Below, piece by piece: positions 3,766-13,645 of a stretch of DNA of 64,000 nucleotides. A program made the translations under genes and the position numbers. Position 1 is the first letter of the stretch, and every line of letters starts with the position of its first letter. Location: the NCBI RefSeq assembly GCF_009467795.1, contig NZ_WIAX01000001.1, positions 1-64,000 on the forward strand, written 5' to 3'. Origin of the DNA: Nesterenkonia halophila (lineage in GTDB: Bacteria; Actinomycetota; Actinomycetes; Actinomycetales; Micrococcaceae). A model generated the notes under the pieces. It did no database searches and had not been told where the DNA came from. It saw only the letters and a list, made by a program, of their open reading frames with translations.

Positions 3766-3782
3766 TGCATGATGTGATGTGG

Positions 3783-3847
3783 TTGACATGGCCGGGTGGT
3801 CAGCGCCAAGGTTGCGTAAAATGAAAGTGATTGTCCGCGATTCGAAA
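3783..3847 (+). promoter_or_regulatory. Promoter and paired operator B of the uricase operon
   Basis: A perfect TTGACA (3783-3788) is followed after 18 bp by a weak -10 CAAGGT (3807-3812). Operator boxes TTGCGTAAAATGAAA (3812-3826) and GTCCGCGATTCGAAA (3833-3847) follow at once, 21 bp apart, covering the expected transcription start. This geometry suits a repressor. Confidence 0.6.
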
Positions 3848-3859
3848 GTCGAGGGGTCG

Positions 3860-4354
3860 ATGACACTCGAGGAGTTCAACCGACTCGAGGCCGAGGGGGC
3901 CGGCGCGATGATCCGCCCGTGCCTCGACGTCGACCGCTGGGTCCGGGCTGTGGTCGAGGCGCGTCCTTACCGCGACGTCGAGGCATGCACCGTCGCGGCG
4001 CGGCAGGCGGCGCATCCGCTGCGTCCCGAGGAGATCGAGGCCGCGCTGGCCCAGCATCCCAGGATCGGGGAGCGCCGGGAGGGCTCCTCGGCCGAGGCGC
4101 GCCACTCGCGTCGCGAGCAGGCCGGCCTCGGCGACGTCGACGCCGCCGTCGAGGAGCGCCTGGCCGTCGGCAACGACGCCTACGAAGAGCGCTTCGGCCG
4201 GGTCTTCCTCATCCGTGCGGCCGGCCGTGACCATCGCGAGATCCTCGCCGAGCTCGAACGGCGGCTGCGCCAGGACCCTGAGGACGAGCTCGCCGAAGTC
4301 GGCGAGCAGCTCGAGCAGATCGCCGCGCTGCGGCTGGAAGGACTTCTCCGATGA
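3860..4354 (+). CDS. uraD: 2-oxo-4-hydroxy-4-carboxy-5-ureidoimidazoline (OHCU) decarboxylase
   Basis: Third step of urate breakdown: decarboxylates OHCU to S-allantoin. 164 residues, normal for the family. The start MTLEEFNRL matches the family N-terminus, and the catalytic region QHPRIGE lies near residue 70. GAGGGG at 3851-3856 is a close ribosome binding site. In-frame starts further upstream (3779) were rejected because they would overlap operator B. Its last bases overlap the hydroxyisourate hydrolase start as ATGA, so the two are translationally coupled. Confidence 0.92.
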   Translation: MTLEEFNRLEAEGAGAMIRPCLDVDRWVRAVVEARPYRDVEACTVAARQAAHPLRPEEIEAALAQHPRIGERREGSSAEARHSRREQAGLGDVDAAVEERLAVGNDAYEERFGRVFLIRAAGRDHREILAELERRLRQDPEDELAEVGEQLEQIAALRLEGLLR

Positions 4355-4677
4355 GCTTCATCACCGCCCACGTGCTCGACTCCACCAGCGGCGCTCCCGC
4401 CGCAGGCGTCGACGTCGAGCTGCGCGCCGCCGACGGCGCGCTCCTGGCCGAGGCGCGGACGAATCAGGATGGTCGCGTCCCCGAGCTCGGCCCACAGACC
4501 CTGGAACCCGGCGACTACCGGATCATCTTCCGAACGGGAGCCTACTTCGCCGCACGGGGGCAGGAGCACTTCCACCCGTCGGTGACCGTGGACTTCACCG
4601 TGCAGCCGGGGGAGGAGCACTATCACATCCCGCTGCTGCTGAGTCCGTTCGCCTATTCCACCTATCGCGGCAGCTGA
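4351..4677 (+). CDS. uraH: 5-hydroxyisourate hydrolase (transthyretin-like)
   Basis: Second step of urate breakdown: hydrolyses 5-hydroxyisourate to OHCU. 108 residues, the normal size of a transthyretin-like subunit (tetramer expected). The N-terminal HVLDSTSGAPAAGV motif and the C-terminal YRGS tetrapeptide, both diagnostic for the enzyme rather than for thyroid-hormone transthyretins, are present. ATGA overlap with uraD and a 109-bp gap to uricase make one operon of uraD, uraH and uricase. Confidence 0.95.
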   Translation: MSFITAHVLDSTSGAPAAGVDVELRAADGALLAEARTNQDGRVPELGPQTLEPGDYRIIFRTGAYFAARGQEHFHPSVTVDFTVQPGEEHYHIPLLLSPFAYSTYRGS

Positions 4678-4786
4678 CCCAGGAGTCGACGGGTCGACGG
4701 CGCGCTCCGGGCGAGGACAGCCGCCCGGGCGTGCGTCGAGCCGACGGCGGCCGCCGCGCGGCCTTCTTCGAGAACAGGAGCAGACG

Positions 4787-5671
4787 ATGAGCGCAGTGAA
4801 GCTCATGAGCAACCAGTACGGCAAGGCGGAGAACCGCGTGGTCCGGGTGTACCGGGGCGCCGCACGTCACGAGCTGCGGGACCTGAACGTCTCCTCGCAG
4901 CTGCACGGGGACTTCCAGGCAGCGCACACCGACGGGGACAACGCGCATGTGGTGCCCACCGACACGCAGAAGAACACCGTCTTCGCCAAGGCGAAGGAGG
5001 AGGGGATCCGGTCTCCGGAGCAGTTCCTGCTGACGCTCGCCGACCACTTCACCTCCTCCTTCGGCTGGGTCACCGGCGGCCGCTGGTCCGCCGAGGAATA
5101 CGGCTGGTCGCGGATCGAGGGGCATGATCACTCCTTCTACCGCTCCGAGCCGGAGGTGCGCACGGCGGCTCTGGTGCGCGACGGCGCGGCCAGCGAGCTG
5201 GTCTCGGGCTTCTACGGGCTGACAGTGCTCAAGACCACCGAGTCCGGCTTCGTGGGCTATCCGAAGGATGCGTACACGACCCTGCCGGAGACCGAGGATC
5301 GGATCCTCGCCACCGACATCTCCACCCGGTGGCGCGTCAGCACCACCGACGTGGACTTCGACGCGGTCTACCGGAAGGTGCGCGGGATCATCCTCTCGAC
5401 CTTCACCGACCACTACTCCAAGGCGCTGCAGCACACGCTGTACCAGATGGGCGAGAACGTGATCGACGCCGTCGACGAGATCGACGAGATCCGCTTCTCC
5501 TGCCCCAATAAGCATCACTTCGCCTCGGACCTCTCGCCCTTCGGCCTGGAGAACCCGAACGAGGTCTTCCACGCCGCAGATCGGCCGTACGGGCTGATCG
5601 AGGCGAGCATCGCCCGCGAGGGGGTCGCGGAGCGTCCGGACGTCTGGGCCGGCGTGGCCGGGTTCTGCTGA
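4787..5671 (+). CDS. uox: Urate oxidase (uricase)
   Basis: Oxidises urate with O2 to 5-hydroxyisourate and H2O2, without cofactor or metal. 294 residues. The proposed proton-relay residues are visible: Lys in NQYGKAENRVV (N-terminus), Thr in DTQKNTVF (near 65) and His in CPNKHHF (near 241). The family block TFTDHYSKALQHTLYQM is also present. AGGAG precedes the ATG. It is last in the uraD-uraH-uox operon and is closed by a very strong hairpin. Xanthine dehydrogenase is not in the window, so urate must come from elsewhere or be imported by the NCS2 permease at 11645. Confidence 0.96.
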   Translation: MSAVKLMSNQYGKAENRVVRVYRGAARHELRDLNVSSQLHGDFQAAHTDGDNAHVVPTDTQKNTVFAKAKEEGIRSPEQFLLTLADHFTSSFGWVTGGRWSAEEYGWSRIEGHDHSFYRSEPEVRTAALVRDGAASELVSGFYGLTVLKTTESGFVGYPKDAYTTLPETEDRILATDISTRWRVSTTDVDFDAVYRKVRGIILSTFTDHYSKALQHTLYQMGENVIDAVDEIDEIRFSCPNKHHFASDLSPFGLENPNEVFHAADRPYGLIEASIAREGVAERPDVWAGVAGFC

Positions 5672-5718
5672 GTCGTCGCAGGTCGTCCGGCCGGCGCTCC
5701 GGCGCCGGCCGGACGTGA

Positions 5719-5770
5719 AAGCACAGAGGGCTCCGTCCCGAGAGTGGTCTCGGGACGGAGCCCTCTGTGC
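5719..5770. terminator. Strong bidirectional terminator after uricase
   Basis: Perfect 24-bp stem (5719-5742 with 5747-5770) with loop GTGG. It separates the plus-strand uricase operon from the small minus-strand gene that ends at 5815, and would stop both transcripts. Confidence 0.85.
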
Positions 5771-5814
5771 TGTGCGGTCGGCGGCGGGGCCCTGGGTCCA
5801 TCGGTCGCCCCTGG

Positions 5815-5997
5815 TCAGCGGCACTGCGGCAGGTGCGATCGCAGTCCCGGGATGCGGCAGATCAGCGGGGGTGCCGCGGGCGTCGGTGCGGCCGGCGTGA
5901 CGGCCGGATGCAGGAAGAAGTCCGGGTCGTCGCCGCCCTCGGCAGGGACCTCTCCGACGTCGTGCGGCTGCGGGTCGTGTGCTGGCGTGGGTGTCAT
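5815..5997 (-). CDS. Unrecognised 60-residue protein under the purine-island operator
   Basis: Small proline-rich protein with no family I recognise. It has an acidic middle (EGGDDPDFF), an Ala/Pro linker and a C-terminus with two cysteines and basic residues (ICRIPGLRSHLPQCR). No signal peptide or membrane helix. Evidence that it is real: GGAGG 7 nt before the ATG, third-position G+C of about 80% over its whole length, a sigma-A promoter (TTGACC, 17 bp, GATACT) 76-104 nt upstream on the minus strand, the island operator pair between promoter and gene, and a strong terminator after it. It is probably a small accessory or regulatory protein of urate use. This function is inferred only from context. 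Confidence 0.6.
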   Translation of the reverse strand: MTPTPAHDPQPHDVGEVPAEGGDDPDFFLHPAVTPAAPTPAAPPLICRIPGLRSHLPQCR

Positions 5998-6034
5998 GGA
6001 ACGTCCTCCGGCCCCGGCGGGACTGCCCGCCTAG

Positions 6035-6101
6035 TTTCGCAATACGGAATGATAATTCCGTATGGTGGTTCCAGTATCCGTCCCGCAGGGTCGGCGGTCA
6101 A
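6035..6101 (-). promoter_or_regulatory. Promoter and paired operator C of the 60-residue protein gene
   Basis: On the minus strand: TTGACC (6101-6096), 17-bp spacer, GATACT (6078-6073), then two operator boxes. These are 6056-6070 (TTCCGTATGGTGGTT on plus) and 6035-6049 (TTCCGTATTGCGAAA on minus), starts 21 bp apart. Together they form the perfect 9-4-9 palindrome ATACGGAAT-GATA-ATTCCGTAT (6042-6063). This is the most symmetrical copy of the island operator. Confidence 0.7.
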
Positions 6102-6162
6102 GGGGTCGTGGCGACTCGGGACGCCTCCCCGCGGGCAGGGCGGGATTGGGCAGGGCGGGGTC

Positions 6163-6212
6163 GGACGGAGGGGTTGGACGGAGGGGGCGGACGGAGGGGG
6201 CGGACGGAGGGG
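6163..6212 (+). repeat. Four tandem GGACGGAGGGG units, 13-bp period
   Basis: GGACGGAGGGG occurs at 6163, 6176, 6189 and 6202, exactly 13 bp apart, on one strand. The G-runs could form a G-quadruplex on the plus strand. The repeat lies just after the 3' end of iclR (minus strand), where the iclR transcript would carry the C-rich complement. Confidence 0.85.
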
Positions 6213-6255
6213 TGGGCCGGCGATGCCGGGCGCCGGCGGGGGCGGTGCCCGGAGG

Positions 6256-7060
6256 TCAGGCCTGGGCGAGCGCCTCGGAGATCTGCTCGGCGCAGCGCCG
6301 CAGCAGCGGGACGGCGCGGTGGGCGAAATCGTCGTCCACGCGGCTCGTCGGGCCGGAGACGGAGATCGCCAGCGGCGTCGGTGCATCCGGCACGGCGGTG
6401 GCGAAGCAGCGCACGCCGAGCTCCTGCTCCTGCTCGTCGACGGAATAGCCGCGCTCGCGGATGCGGGCGAGCTCGTCCTCCAGCGCCTCGAGCGACCGGA
6501 GGCTGTGCTCGGTGTGCGGCGGCATCCCGGCGGTGGAGACGATCTGACGGACCTGCTCGGCGGGGAGCTGGGCGAGGATCGCCTTGCCCACGCCGGTGTC
6601 GTGGGTGTGGGCGCGGCGGCCGACCTCGGTGAACATGCGCATCTGGTGCGGCGAGGGCGCCTGGTCCACGTAGACGACCATGTCGCCGTCGAGGGTGGCG
6701 ACGTTGGCACTCTCGCCGAGCTGCTCGACGAGCGTCCGCAGATGCGGGCGGGCGATGGCGCCGAGCTGGCGGCCGGCCAGCTCGCCCAGGCGCACGAGCT
6801 CAGGCCCCAGCGCATAGCCGCGGTCGGGCAGCTGGCGGACCACGCCGACGCCGAGCAGAGTCTTCAGCAGACGATGGATGGTCGGCATCGGCAGGTCGAC
6901 GACGGCGGCCAGCTCGCTGAGCGTGGTGCGGCCGCCCGAGGCGGCGATCACCGACAGCAGGTCGAAGGCGCGCTCGACGGACTGGACTCCGCCGCGCGCC
7001 GGCCGGTCGACGGAGCTGTTCGGCTCGGCGGGGACGGCGTCCGGGGTGCTGCTGGCCATG
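6256..7060 (-). CDS. IclR family transcriptional regulator (candidate regulator of the island)
   Basis: 268 residues: N-terminal winged helix-turn-helix (about residues 26-75, with TTLSELAAVVDLPMPTIHRL typical of IclR) and a C-terminal effector domain (about 90-255) including GVGKAILAQLP and ERGYSVDEQE. It is divergent from the malic enzyme gene, with operator pair D between them. AllR, the allantoin regulator of enterobacteria, belongs to this family and responds to glyoxylate. By analogy this protein may bind the paired boxes and release them with a purine-derived ligand such as glyoxylate or allantoate. The ATG at 7060 follows AGGAGG. A GTG at 7110 would add 16 residues. Confidence 0.88.
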
Positions 7061-7224
7061 GCGTCGGCGTCCTCCTGGTGTTCGGGGTGGAGGGGCGCGG
7101 CGTGCTGCACCGGCTCCCTGGTCGAGTCTCCGTGATCGAGTCTATCCGGTGTCCCGGAGCTGTCCCCGGCCGCATGCGGCGGGGCAGGCTGGACCTCGAG
7201 ATGTGGCTTGAGTCATGGGAATGC

Positions 7225-7298: not shown

Positions 7299-8756
7299 AT
7301 GACACAGCCGAGCCCCGGACACTCCATCACGCTGCGGGTGTCCATACCCGCCGGACCGGCGTCGGCCACGGACCTGGTGGCGGCCGTCGCCGGCACCGGT
7401 GCGGCGCTGACCGCCTTCGACGTCGTCGAAGCCGCCCAGAACGAGCTGCTCGTCGACGTCACCTGCGACACCCTCGGCGCCGAGCACGCCGCCGAGGTCG
7501 CCTCCGCGCTCACCGCCCTGGAGGGGGTGACGGTGAAGAAGTCCTCGGACCGCACCTTCCTGGTCCACCTCGGCGGCAAGCTCGAGTCGACGCCGAAGGC
7601 GCCGATCCGCACCCGCGACGACCTCTCCCGCGCCTACACCCCCGGTGTCGCGCGCGTCTGCCGGGCGATCGCGGAGGACCCCGCCGACGCCCGCCGGCTG
7701 ACCATCAAGCGCAACACCGTCGCAGTGGTCACCGACGGCTCGGCGGTCCTCGGACTCGGCGACATCGGCCCCGAGGCGTCCATGCCCGTCATGGAGGGCA
7801 AAGCGGTGCTCTTCAAGGAGTTCGCCGGCGTCGACGCCTGGCCGGTCGCCCTGGACGCCCGCGACACCGAGGAGATCATCTCCATCTGCAAGGCGCTGGC
7901 CCCGGCCTACGGCGGGATCAACCTCGAGGACATCTCCGCGCCGCGCTGCTTCGAGATCGAGGCCCGGCTGCGCGAGGAGCTCGACATCCCGGTCTTCCAC
8001 GACGACCAGCACGGCACGGCGATCGTCACGCTGGCCGCGCTGACCAACGCGCTGACCGTCGTGGCCAAGCAGATCCAGGACGTGCGCATCGTCGTCTCCG
8101 GCGCCGGCGCGGCCGGCCACGCGGTGGTGCAGCTGCTGCAGGCCGCCGGGGCGCGGCACATCGTCGTCTGCGGCCGCCACGGCGTGCTGGACCCGGAGGC
8201 CGACCACGCGGACCCGCACCGTGCCTGGCTGGCCACGCACACCAATCCCGACGGCGTCACGGGCACGCTGAAGGAGGCCGTCGTCGGCGCCGACGTGTTC
8301 ATCGGCGTCTCCGCGCCGAACCTGCTCGACGGCGACGACGTCGCCGGCATGGCCGACGACGCGGTGGTCTTCGCGATGTCCAATCCGGACCCCGAGGTCG
8401 ACCCGGGCGTGGCCGGACGCACCGCCGCGGTCGTGGCCACCGGTCGCAGCGACTTCCCGAACCAGATCAACAACGTGCTCGCCTTCCCCGGCTTCTTCCG
8501 CGGCCTGCTCGACGCGGAGGCCTGCGACATCACCGACGACATGCTCGTCGCCGCCGCGGAGGCCATCGCCGGGTGCATCTCCGCCGAGGCGCTGAACCCG
8601 CATCACATCATCCCCTCGGTCTTCGAGCAGGGCGTCTCCGAGCACGTCGCCGCCGCCGTGGCGGAGGCCGCTCGCGGCGACGCCGTCCATCGCCGGGGCG
8701 CCGCGGCGGAGGCCGCCGACCCTGTCCCCGCCCTCGCCGAGGGAGTGATCGCATGA
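7299..8756 (+). CDS. Malic enzyme with N-terminal ACT-like domain
   Basis: Oxidatively decarboxylates malate to pyruvate, most likely NAD-dependent. 485 residues. Residues about 8-85 look like an ACT-type regulatory domain. The malic domain has YTPGVARVC (catalytic Tyr), [15 protein letters not shown], the metal/substrate region FHDDQHGTA, the Rossmann loop SGAGAAG, and MSNPDPE. It is preceded by operator pair D and overlaps the next gene by ATGA. With malate synthase from the same regulon it forms a route glyoxylate + acetyl-CoA to malate to pyruvate, so it most likely serves ureide growth here. GGAAGG at 7285 supports the ATG. Confidence 0.92.
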
Positions 8757-13578: not shown

Positions 13579-13645
13579 TTGACCTTGATCACGCCGCCCC
13601 GTAGCCTGTTCTCACGTTGCGGAGTTTAAGTTCCGCAAAGTGGAA
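13579..13645 (+). promoter_or_regulatory. Promoter and paired operator F of the glyoxylate carboligase operon
   Basis: TTGACC (13579-13584), 17 bp, TAGCCT (13602-13607). Boxes start 3 bp later at 13610 (weak: TCTCACGTTGCGGAG) and 13631 (TTCCGCAAAGTGGAA, 14/15), again 21 bp apart, so the first box covers the expected start site. Drives hyi and probably the genes to allB. Confidence 0.7.

Follow-up and report, generated by a model that had tools for sequence, protein, structure and literature searches.

A conserved small protein of an IclR-type purine and glyoxylate regulon, with an ACT-like malic enzyme as candidate partner

SMP—the name used here for a small protein of 60 residues, a length at which genes are readily missed—is almost certainly the product of a real coding gene of an IclR-controlled regulon. 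Its gene lies on the minus strand at positions 5815–5997 of the window, that is, the whole 64,000-nucleotide stretch of DNA that was analysed. Genome comparison shows the gene to be protein-coding and under purifying selection, an operator at its promoter that is common to another gene group of the surrounding island places it in an IclR-type regulon, and among the genes of the island its association is most constant with a nearby malic enzyme. The whole reading—SMP as a small protein that is translated, is probably disordered, belongs to an IclR-controlled purine/glyoxylate regulon, and would bind and tune an ACT-domain malic enzyme—is one that we regard as possible, falling somewhat short of probable, and within it the malic enzyme as the partner is the uncertain part.

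The SMP gene and its protein family

On the minus strand, the frame opens with an ATG at 5997 and runs over 60 codons to a TGA at 5815; the ribosome-binding site, GGAGG at 6005–6009, sits 7 nt ahead of the start codon. Direct checks of the sequence bore out both elements as the initial annotation had described them. The protein combines an acidic core, GGDDPDFF, with the C-terminal stretch PLICRIPGLRSHLPQCR. The G+C content of the three codon positions is 0.79/0.59/0.82; the high third-position value, which had been put forward in favor of a gene, is real but weak evidence alone, as the first position is high too. Past the stop codon, a perfect 24-bp hairpin with a 4-nt loop (5720–5771; arms 5720–5743 and 5748–5771) separates the convergent uricase and SMP genes. 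It had been taken for the terminator of SMP: the hairpin itself stands, but it has no T tract, the terminator scan gives it no score, and—lying between two convergent genes—it could serve both uricase and SMP.

The frame goes beyond chance because it is conserved in other species at the same place. Among 98 related genomes, 71 gave a match at E up to 1, of which the six at E <0.001—the window's own genome included—were kept, and in all five of the other genomes SMP follows iclR on the same strand. Comparing the frame between uricase and iclR in relatives, together with its dN/dS, had been proposed from the outset as a check, and it came out in favor of a gene: the frame is conserved, and dN/dS is below 1. 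By the Nei–Gojobori method, the ratio ranges from 0.04 to 0.30 in 50 of 52 pairs from nine groups of close relatives (0.0 and 0.58 in the other two) and from 0.40 to 0.61 in six divergent Nesterenkonia pairs. The shortness of SMP and the lack of a known family might speak for a regulatory RNA or a chance frame. However, the conservation of the frame and of its end, a dN/dS far below 1, and the absence of any Rfam match in 5600–6300 leave this explanation a practically negligible probability.

Nesterenkonia and Yaniella belong to the Micrococcaceae. By genus, SMP is found in 5/30 Nesterenkonia, in 9/9 Yaniella, and credibly in 2/57 Brevibacterium, where one of three matches (G302) was set aside. 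The profile of the type found in these genera, the cysteine type, drew weak matches from other genera of the family, whose members have [FY]xxGGxDPDF as their common core, end in a basic tail, and mostly adjoin the urate operon. In total, 68 members of 53–83 aa from Nesterenkonia, Yaniella, Brevibacterium, and further genomes of the same family were aligned. They were selected for the DPD motif, and DPD[FL] in 68/68 thus holds by construction. In every one of the 68, the 12 residues plus DPDF are net negative and the tail is net positive. The two-cysteine basic tail that had been noted for the window protein is true of it but marks only one subfamily, with the C..P..C tail confined to 19 of the 68 aligned members, all from Nesterenkonia, Yaniella, or Brevibacterium, and lacking in the remaining 49. 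An hhalign comparison of the cysteine type (15 rows) with the other-genera type (10 rows) gives a probability of 97.4 and an E of 1.1e-11 over 37 columns round the core, and both types have the same genomic surroundings; on these profiles and surroundings, they form one family.

The extent of this family was followed with several profiles. A cysteine-type search matched in 8 of 396 genomes, of which G302, G086, and G418 were taken as noise, while G059 and G045 later proved to be members. A second one, over 395 genomes at E up to 0.05, matched 36, of which 29 were kept and G038, G237, G487, G524, G557, G594, and G686 were set aside. Across 396 genomes of the phylum, the cysteine-type profile matched three, the window's own plus G038 and G970 (both set aside), and nothing credible elsewhere. 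With the wider profile, 70 of the 265 family genomes gave a match (E up to 0.05). Here, 55 were kept—G609 by its match row alone and not by its sequence—and 15 were set aside (G009, G011, G035, G036, G537, G545, G562, G573, G587, G596, G607, G608, G614, G631, and G646). Some members escape the profile, as 4 of 40 profile-negative uricase loci hold a small DPDF frame by motif (G048, G039, G494, and G593). The wider profile was run within the family; SMP might also have spread beyond it, since only cysteine-type profiles and a strict DNA pattern (6 stretches) were used there.

No match was found in Pfam, NCBIfam, PHROGs, or the PDB sequences for the window protein and the members given, which agrees with the earlier view of an unrecognised protein of no known domain. 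A plasmid search with one protein of the other-genera type gave no match either, and no earlier description of SMP was found in the open-access papers searched. None of the libraries searched has a model for this small-protein family. The AlphaFold model is mostly coil, with a mean pLDDT of 63.4 and a pTM of 0.24, the last 20 residues reaching 79–85; it was built from a 6-sequence alignment, which the low pLDDT may reflect. From this model, SMP is probably a disordered small protein. A conserved core, a variable basic tail, and the C-x(11)-C of one subfamily might also be expected of a secreted or modified peptide, with the DPDF part as the leader and the basic tail—bearing two cysteines here—as the product. 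Against this, the islands showed no gene recognisable as that of a modifying enzyme, a protease, or an exporter, as judged from homology to window genes and from the reading frames of a few loci, and we consider such a peptide very improbable.

Promoter, operator, and presumed repressor

SMP is preceded by a sigma-70-type promoter on the minus strand (6073–6101), made up of TTGACC at 6101–6096, a 17-nt spacer, and GATACT ending at 6073. It is present just as claimed at the outset and is the sole promoter-like match in 5600–6300, where shuffles average 0.0. The operator site follows directly downstream of the −10 box, a position as one would expect for a repressor. It is a three-box operator of the IclR-family kind (6035–6063, minus strand; by pattern counts), consisting of a conserved pair, TTCCGTATTGCGAAA (6049–6035), and an upstream box. 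The site contains the perfect 9-4-9 palindrome (6042–6063; ATACGGAAT at 6042–6050 and ATTCCGTAT at 6055–6063) in which the initial annotation had seen an island operator pair. This palindrome is indeed there, but it is the other pairing within the three-box site, and it is the three-box site that is conserved.

The conserved pattern, TTYC-N7-GRAA, occurs in 49 of 55 regions upstream of SMP as opposed to 1.4% of mononucleotide shuffles, these 55 regions omitting nine Yaniella form-b genes, four later-found members, and G581. It is absent upstream of SMP in G003, G028, G611, G733, G045, and G223. A loose three-box pattern is seen in 36/55 regions versus 0.3% of shuffles. TTGAC stands 49–57 nt before the operator in 45/55, and in 39 of these the distance is 50–52 nt. 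With a promoter whose operator is conserved upstream in relatives, the claim of a separately regulated unit holds. In the upstream regions of the nine Yaniella form-b genes, TTYC-N7-GRAA was found in 0/9. By eye, these loci (L092–L100) have two elements in common between SMP and maeB: a stretch with TTACAGT and a GCTCCGAYGATGCAGCAT-like block. Also by eye, G-rich short tandem repeats (GGACGGAGGGG units) are visible in the window at about 6145–6215, between iclR and SMP.

Within the 64-kb window, the operator pattern occurs in two places only: before SMP and, as a second copy, TTCCGCAAAGTGGAA (13631–13645), before hyi-glxR-gcl. The latter also has a TTGACC box upstream. For hyi, the nearest model is hydroxypyruvate isomerase with a score below the NCBIfam cut-off, and glxR (tartronate semialdehyde reductase) and gcl (glyoxylate carboligase) are named by NCBIfam. 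The island further encodes the urate operon on the plus strand (3779–5671; by Pfam, OHCU decarboxylase at 3779–4354, HIU hydrolase at 4351–4677, and uricase at 4787–5671) and, by database matches, malate synthase A, (S)-ureidoglycine aminohydrolase, and a xanthine-type permease.

The presumed island repressor is the IclR-family regulator encoded upstream of SMP (6256–7110, minus strand; Pfam IclR_C and HTH_IclR), and we infer that this neighbouring IclR binds the SMP operator. PMC8222616 describes three-box IclR-family sites for 32 orthologous groups and gives the consensus GKTYCRYW3-4RYGRAMC for group 1 and TGRAACAN1-2TGTTYCA for group 2. The SMP site, TTCCGTATTGCGAAA plus an upstream GGAAT box, has a like layout, and TTYC-N7-GRAA fits the group 1 consensus. 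The main text of PMC8222616 bears neither "Micrococc" nor "Arthrobacter".

SMP might also act on the repressor itself, as a feedback element that modulates repression by binding the IclR protein. It adjoins iclR in the window, in three further Nesterenkonia, in Yaniella form a, and in two Brevibacterium, and it is under the presumed IclR operator. However, five SMP-bearing Yaniella have no IclR match at E 1e-40, and the nine Yaniella form-b genes have no such operator, which renders feedback through IclR quite improbable.

Candidate partners within the urate island

The best candidate partner of SMP is encoded on the far side of iclR by maeB (7299–8756, plus strand; Pfam malic and Malic_M), a malic enzyme whose N-terminal domain is ACT-like. 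Sequence comparisons favor this neighbouring enzyme over uricase. When a joined IclR/PbuX/AceB/MaeB query was run against 41 genomes, a full-length malic enzyme (67–77% identity) was present in 19/19 SMP carriers versus 0/22 non-carriers—a contrast of lineages and not of independent events, all 22 non-carriers being Nesterenkonia, and one in which absences are uncertain, as no more than 12 candidates were scored in each genome, with a threshold of E 1e-40. Seven of the 22 non-carriers have a shorter malic enzyme (51–53%), and the others have none at that threshold.

The five of nine Yaniella that carry SMP without an IclR match also lack a uricase match and an island-like aceB (theirs reaching only 53–57%), and four of the five lack a PbuX match. 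Nevertheless, all five—four genomes of 97–100% completeness and one of 71%—keep SMP divergent from maeB. Yaniella G049, G466, and G469 each bear two SMPs and two such malic enzymes, and these are paired. For these duplicates (L035/L100 in G049, L104/L098 in G466, and L103/L097 in G469), one pair is in the urate island and one stands alone. Yaniella G468 has a urate island, with aceB, iclR, and uricase within 4 kb, that holds neither SMP nor this malic enzyme; its only SMP and its only such malic enzyme adjoin each other elsewhere. SMP also lies beside maeB in G025, where the island is spread over several contigs.

In a maeB tree of 53 rows, the 19 enzymes of the carriers of cysteine-tail SMPs fall on one side of a starred split, and the Yaniella form-b enzymes make up a starred clade beside form a. 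The Brevibacterium malic enzymes (L034 and L075) group with that of Nesterenkonia G028 (L032) in this tree, which suggests horizontal transfer of the urate island. The N-terminal 96 aa of the window's malic enzyme were modelled from 4 sequences as β-α-β-β-α-β with a mean pLDDT of 80.5. Foldseek matches to this part include NikR, homoserine dehydrogenase, and aspartate-kinase regulatory domains (E from 8e-4 to 3e-3) among other ferredoxin-like folds, and Pfam gives no ACT match in it (7299–7586); on the strength of the model, we call the domain ACT-like. The association is not without gaps. Six 10-kb loci (L232, L234, L235, L256, L257, and L262) hold this malic enzyme and no recognised SMP, and hence an ACT-type malic enzyme can do without SMP nearby. 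Moreover, for most of the family's other genera, it is the uricase operon and not maeB that lies closest to SMP.

This proximity raises the question of the urate end of the pathway, where SMP would bind uricase, one of its companions, or PbuX, the permease, and thereby support or limit urate oxidation or uptake. Uricase lies in the same fetched locus in 28/31 later and 13/14 earlier neighbourhoods, and in G493, G570, and G634 it is found about 10, 20, and 26 kb from SMP on the same contig. Taking the 265 family genomes of the SMP and uricase searches as the same draw, uricase is present in 52/55 SMP carriers versus 111/210 others (Fisher p 9e-10, a value that ignores kinship). However, linkage within the island explains this statistic without any contact, SMP persists in the five Yaniella without a uricase match (four of them without a PbuX match), and SMP is missing from 16 of the 21 Nesterenkonia that have uricase. 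We hold a partner at the urate end to be of low probability. A role of SMP tied to uricase is weakened by the same two groups, Yaniella without uricase and Nesterenkonia with uricase but no SMP. Two kinds of urate island exist within Nesterenkonia. In sixteen Nesterenkonia (loci L058–L074), the uricase is a different one, at 53–60% identity, and occurs without SMP, and several of these have a different permease (34–36%).

The island pyruvate dehydrogenase E1, AceE, is a further candidate: SMP might act on AceE, or link the malic enzyme to it and so pass malate-derived pyruvate on to acetyl-CoA. In many loci, aceE is tail-to-tail with SMP or close to it (the copy in L135 being named aceE by NCBIfam); it lies between SMP and uricase in Nesterenkonia G003 and G008, and in G634 it is the sole query gene within 6 kb of SMP. 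However, aceE is absent from the window, does not stand beside SMP in G028, in two Brevibacterium, or in Yaniella loci, and is also found in SMP-negative urate islands (L231, L233, L236, L237, L239, L243, L248, L251, L256, and L263). AceE is thus an unlikely partner in our view. A role tied to aceE alone is weakened by the islands that have aceE and in which no SMP was found.

Two loci of other arrangement may be added. In L135 (G493), genes for aconitase and NADP-isocitrate dehydrogenase (by NCBIfam) are directly upstream of SMP, within the roughly 10 kb that separate it from the urate operon. In L201 (G570), aceE and SMP are followed by two frames—which we take to be permease-like and deaminase-like—and then by iclR, maeB, and aceB, with no uricase in 13 kb.

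Proposed mechanism and comparison with known systems

With the malic enzyme as the preferred partner, the following mechanism might be envisaged. An inducer from purine breakdown would release the repressor, and SMP would be made along with the enzymes for urate, glyoxylate, and malate. Its conserved acidic core would then bind the island's own ACT-domain malic enzyme and tune the step from malate to pyruvate—the exit step once malate synthase has joined glyoxylate and acetyl-CoA. The basic tail might provide a second contact, either to the malic enzyme or to a neighbour, and in the cysteine subfamily its C-x(11)-C could close as a disulphide loop, which would make the effect redox-dependent. 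The acidic core could instead bind something encoded elsewhere.

A bolder version, which we think improbable and offer as speculation, sees SMP as a bivalent disordered linker, whose acidic DPDF core would dock on the ACT-domain malic enzyme while its basic tail holds another island enzyme such as AceE. Glyoxylate would then be burnt via malate and pyruvate in an assembled, inducible complex, redox-switchable in one subfamily, and this family of non-photosynthetic bacteria would be a purine-catabolism counterpart of CP12.

SMP adds a conserved small protein, for which the libraries searched hold no model, to a pathway with otherwise known enzymes. If the preferred reading of an SMP that tunes the malic enzyme is true, it bears on the balance between glyoxylate use via malate and the carboligase route. 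Apart from that, the paired duplication of SMP and maeB in Yaniella makes for a clean case of partner finding by genome comparison.

A similar outlet for purine-derived glyoxylate can be appreciated in the gcl cluster PA1498–PA1502 of Pseudomonas aeruginosa, where—according to the abstract of PMC12694930—the allantoin-inducible gcl, hyi, and glxR turn it into pyruvate. Unlike in the present system, that abstract mentions no small protein and no branch of malate synthase and malic enzyme. For the small protein itself, CP12 offers the closest likeness. As described in PMC9406205 and PMC3906501, CP12 is a disordered regulator of about 80 aa in photosynthetic organisms, rich in charged residues and with redox-active cysteines, that acts on central-carbon enzymes, namely GAPDH and PRK of the Calvin cycle. 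SMP is about as small and, going by its model, may be disordered too, and one subfamily has a cysteine pair. On the other hand, CP12 has four cysteines according to PMC8151241, whereas SMP members have two or are without the pair, and SMP comes from other organisms and another pathway. SMP may work like CP12 in the sense of a functional analogy, with no kinship claimed. If SMP does bind and tune the malic enzyme, this would suggest that central metabolism has small disordered regulators outside photosynthetic organisms as well.
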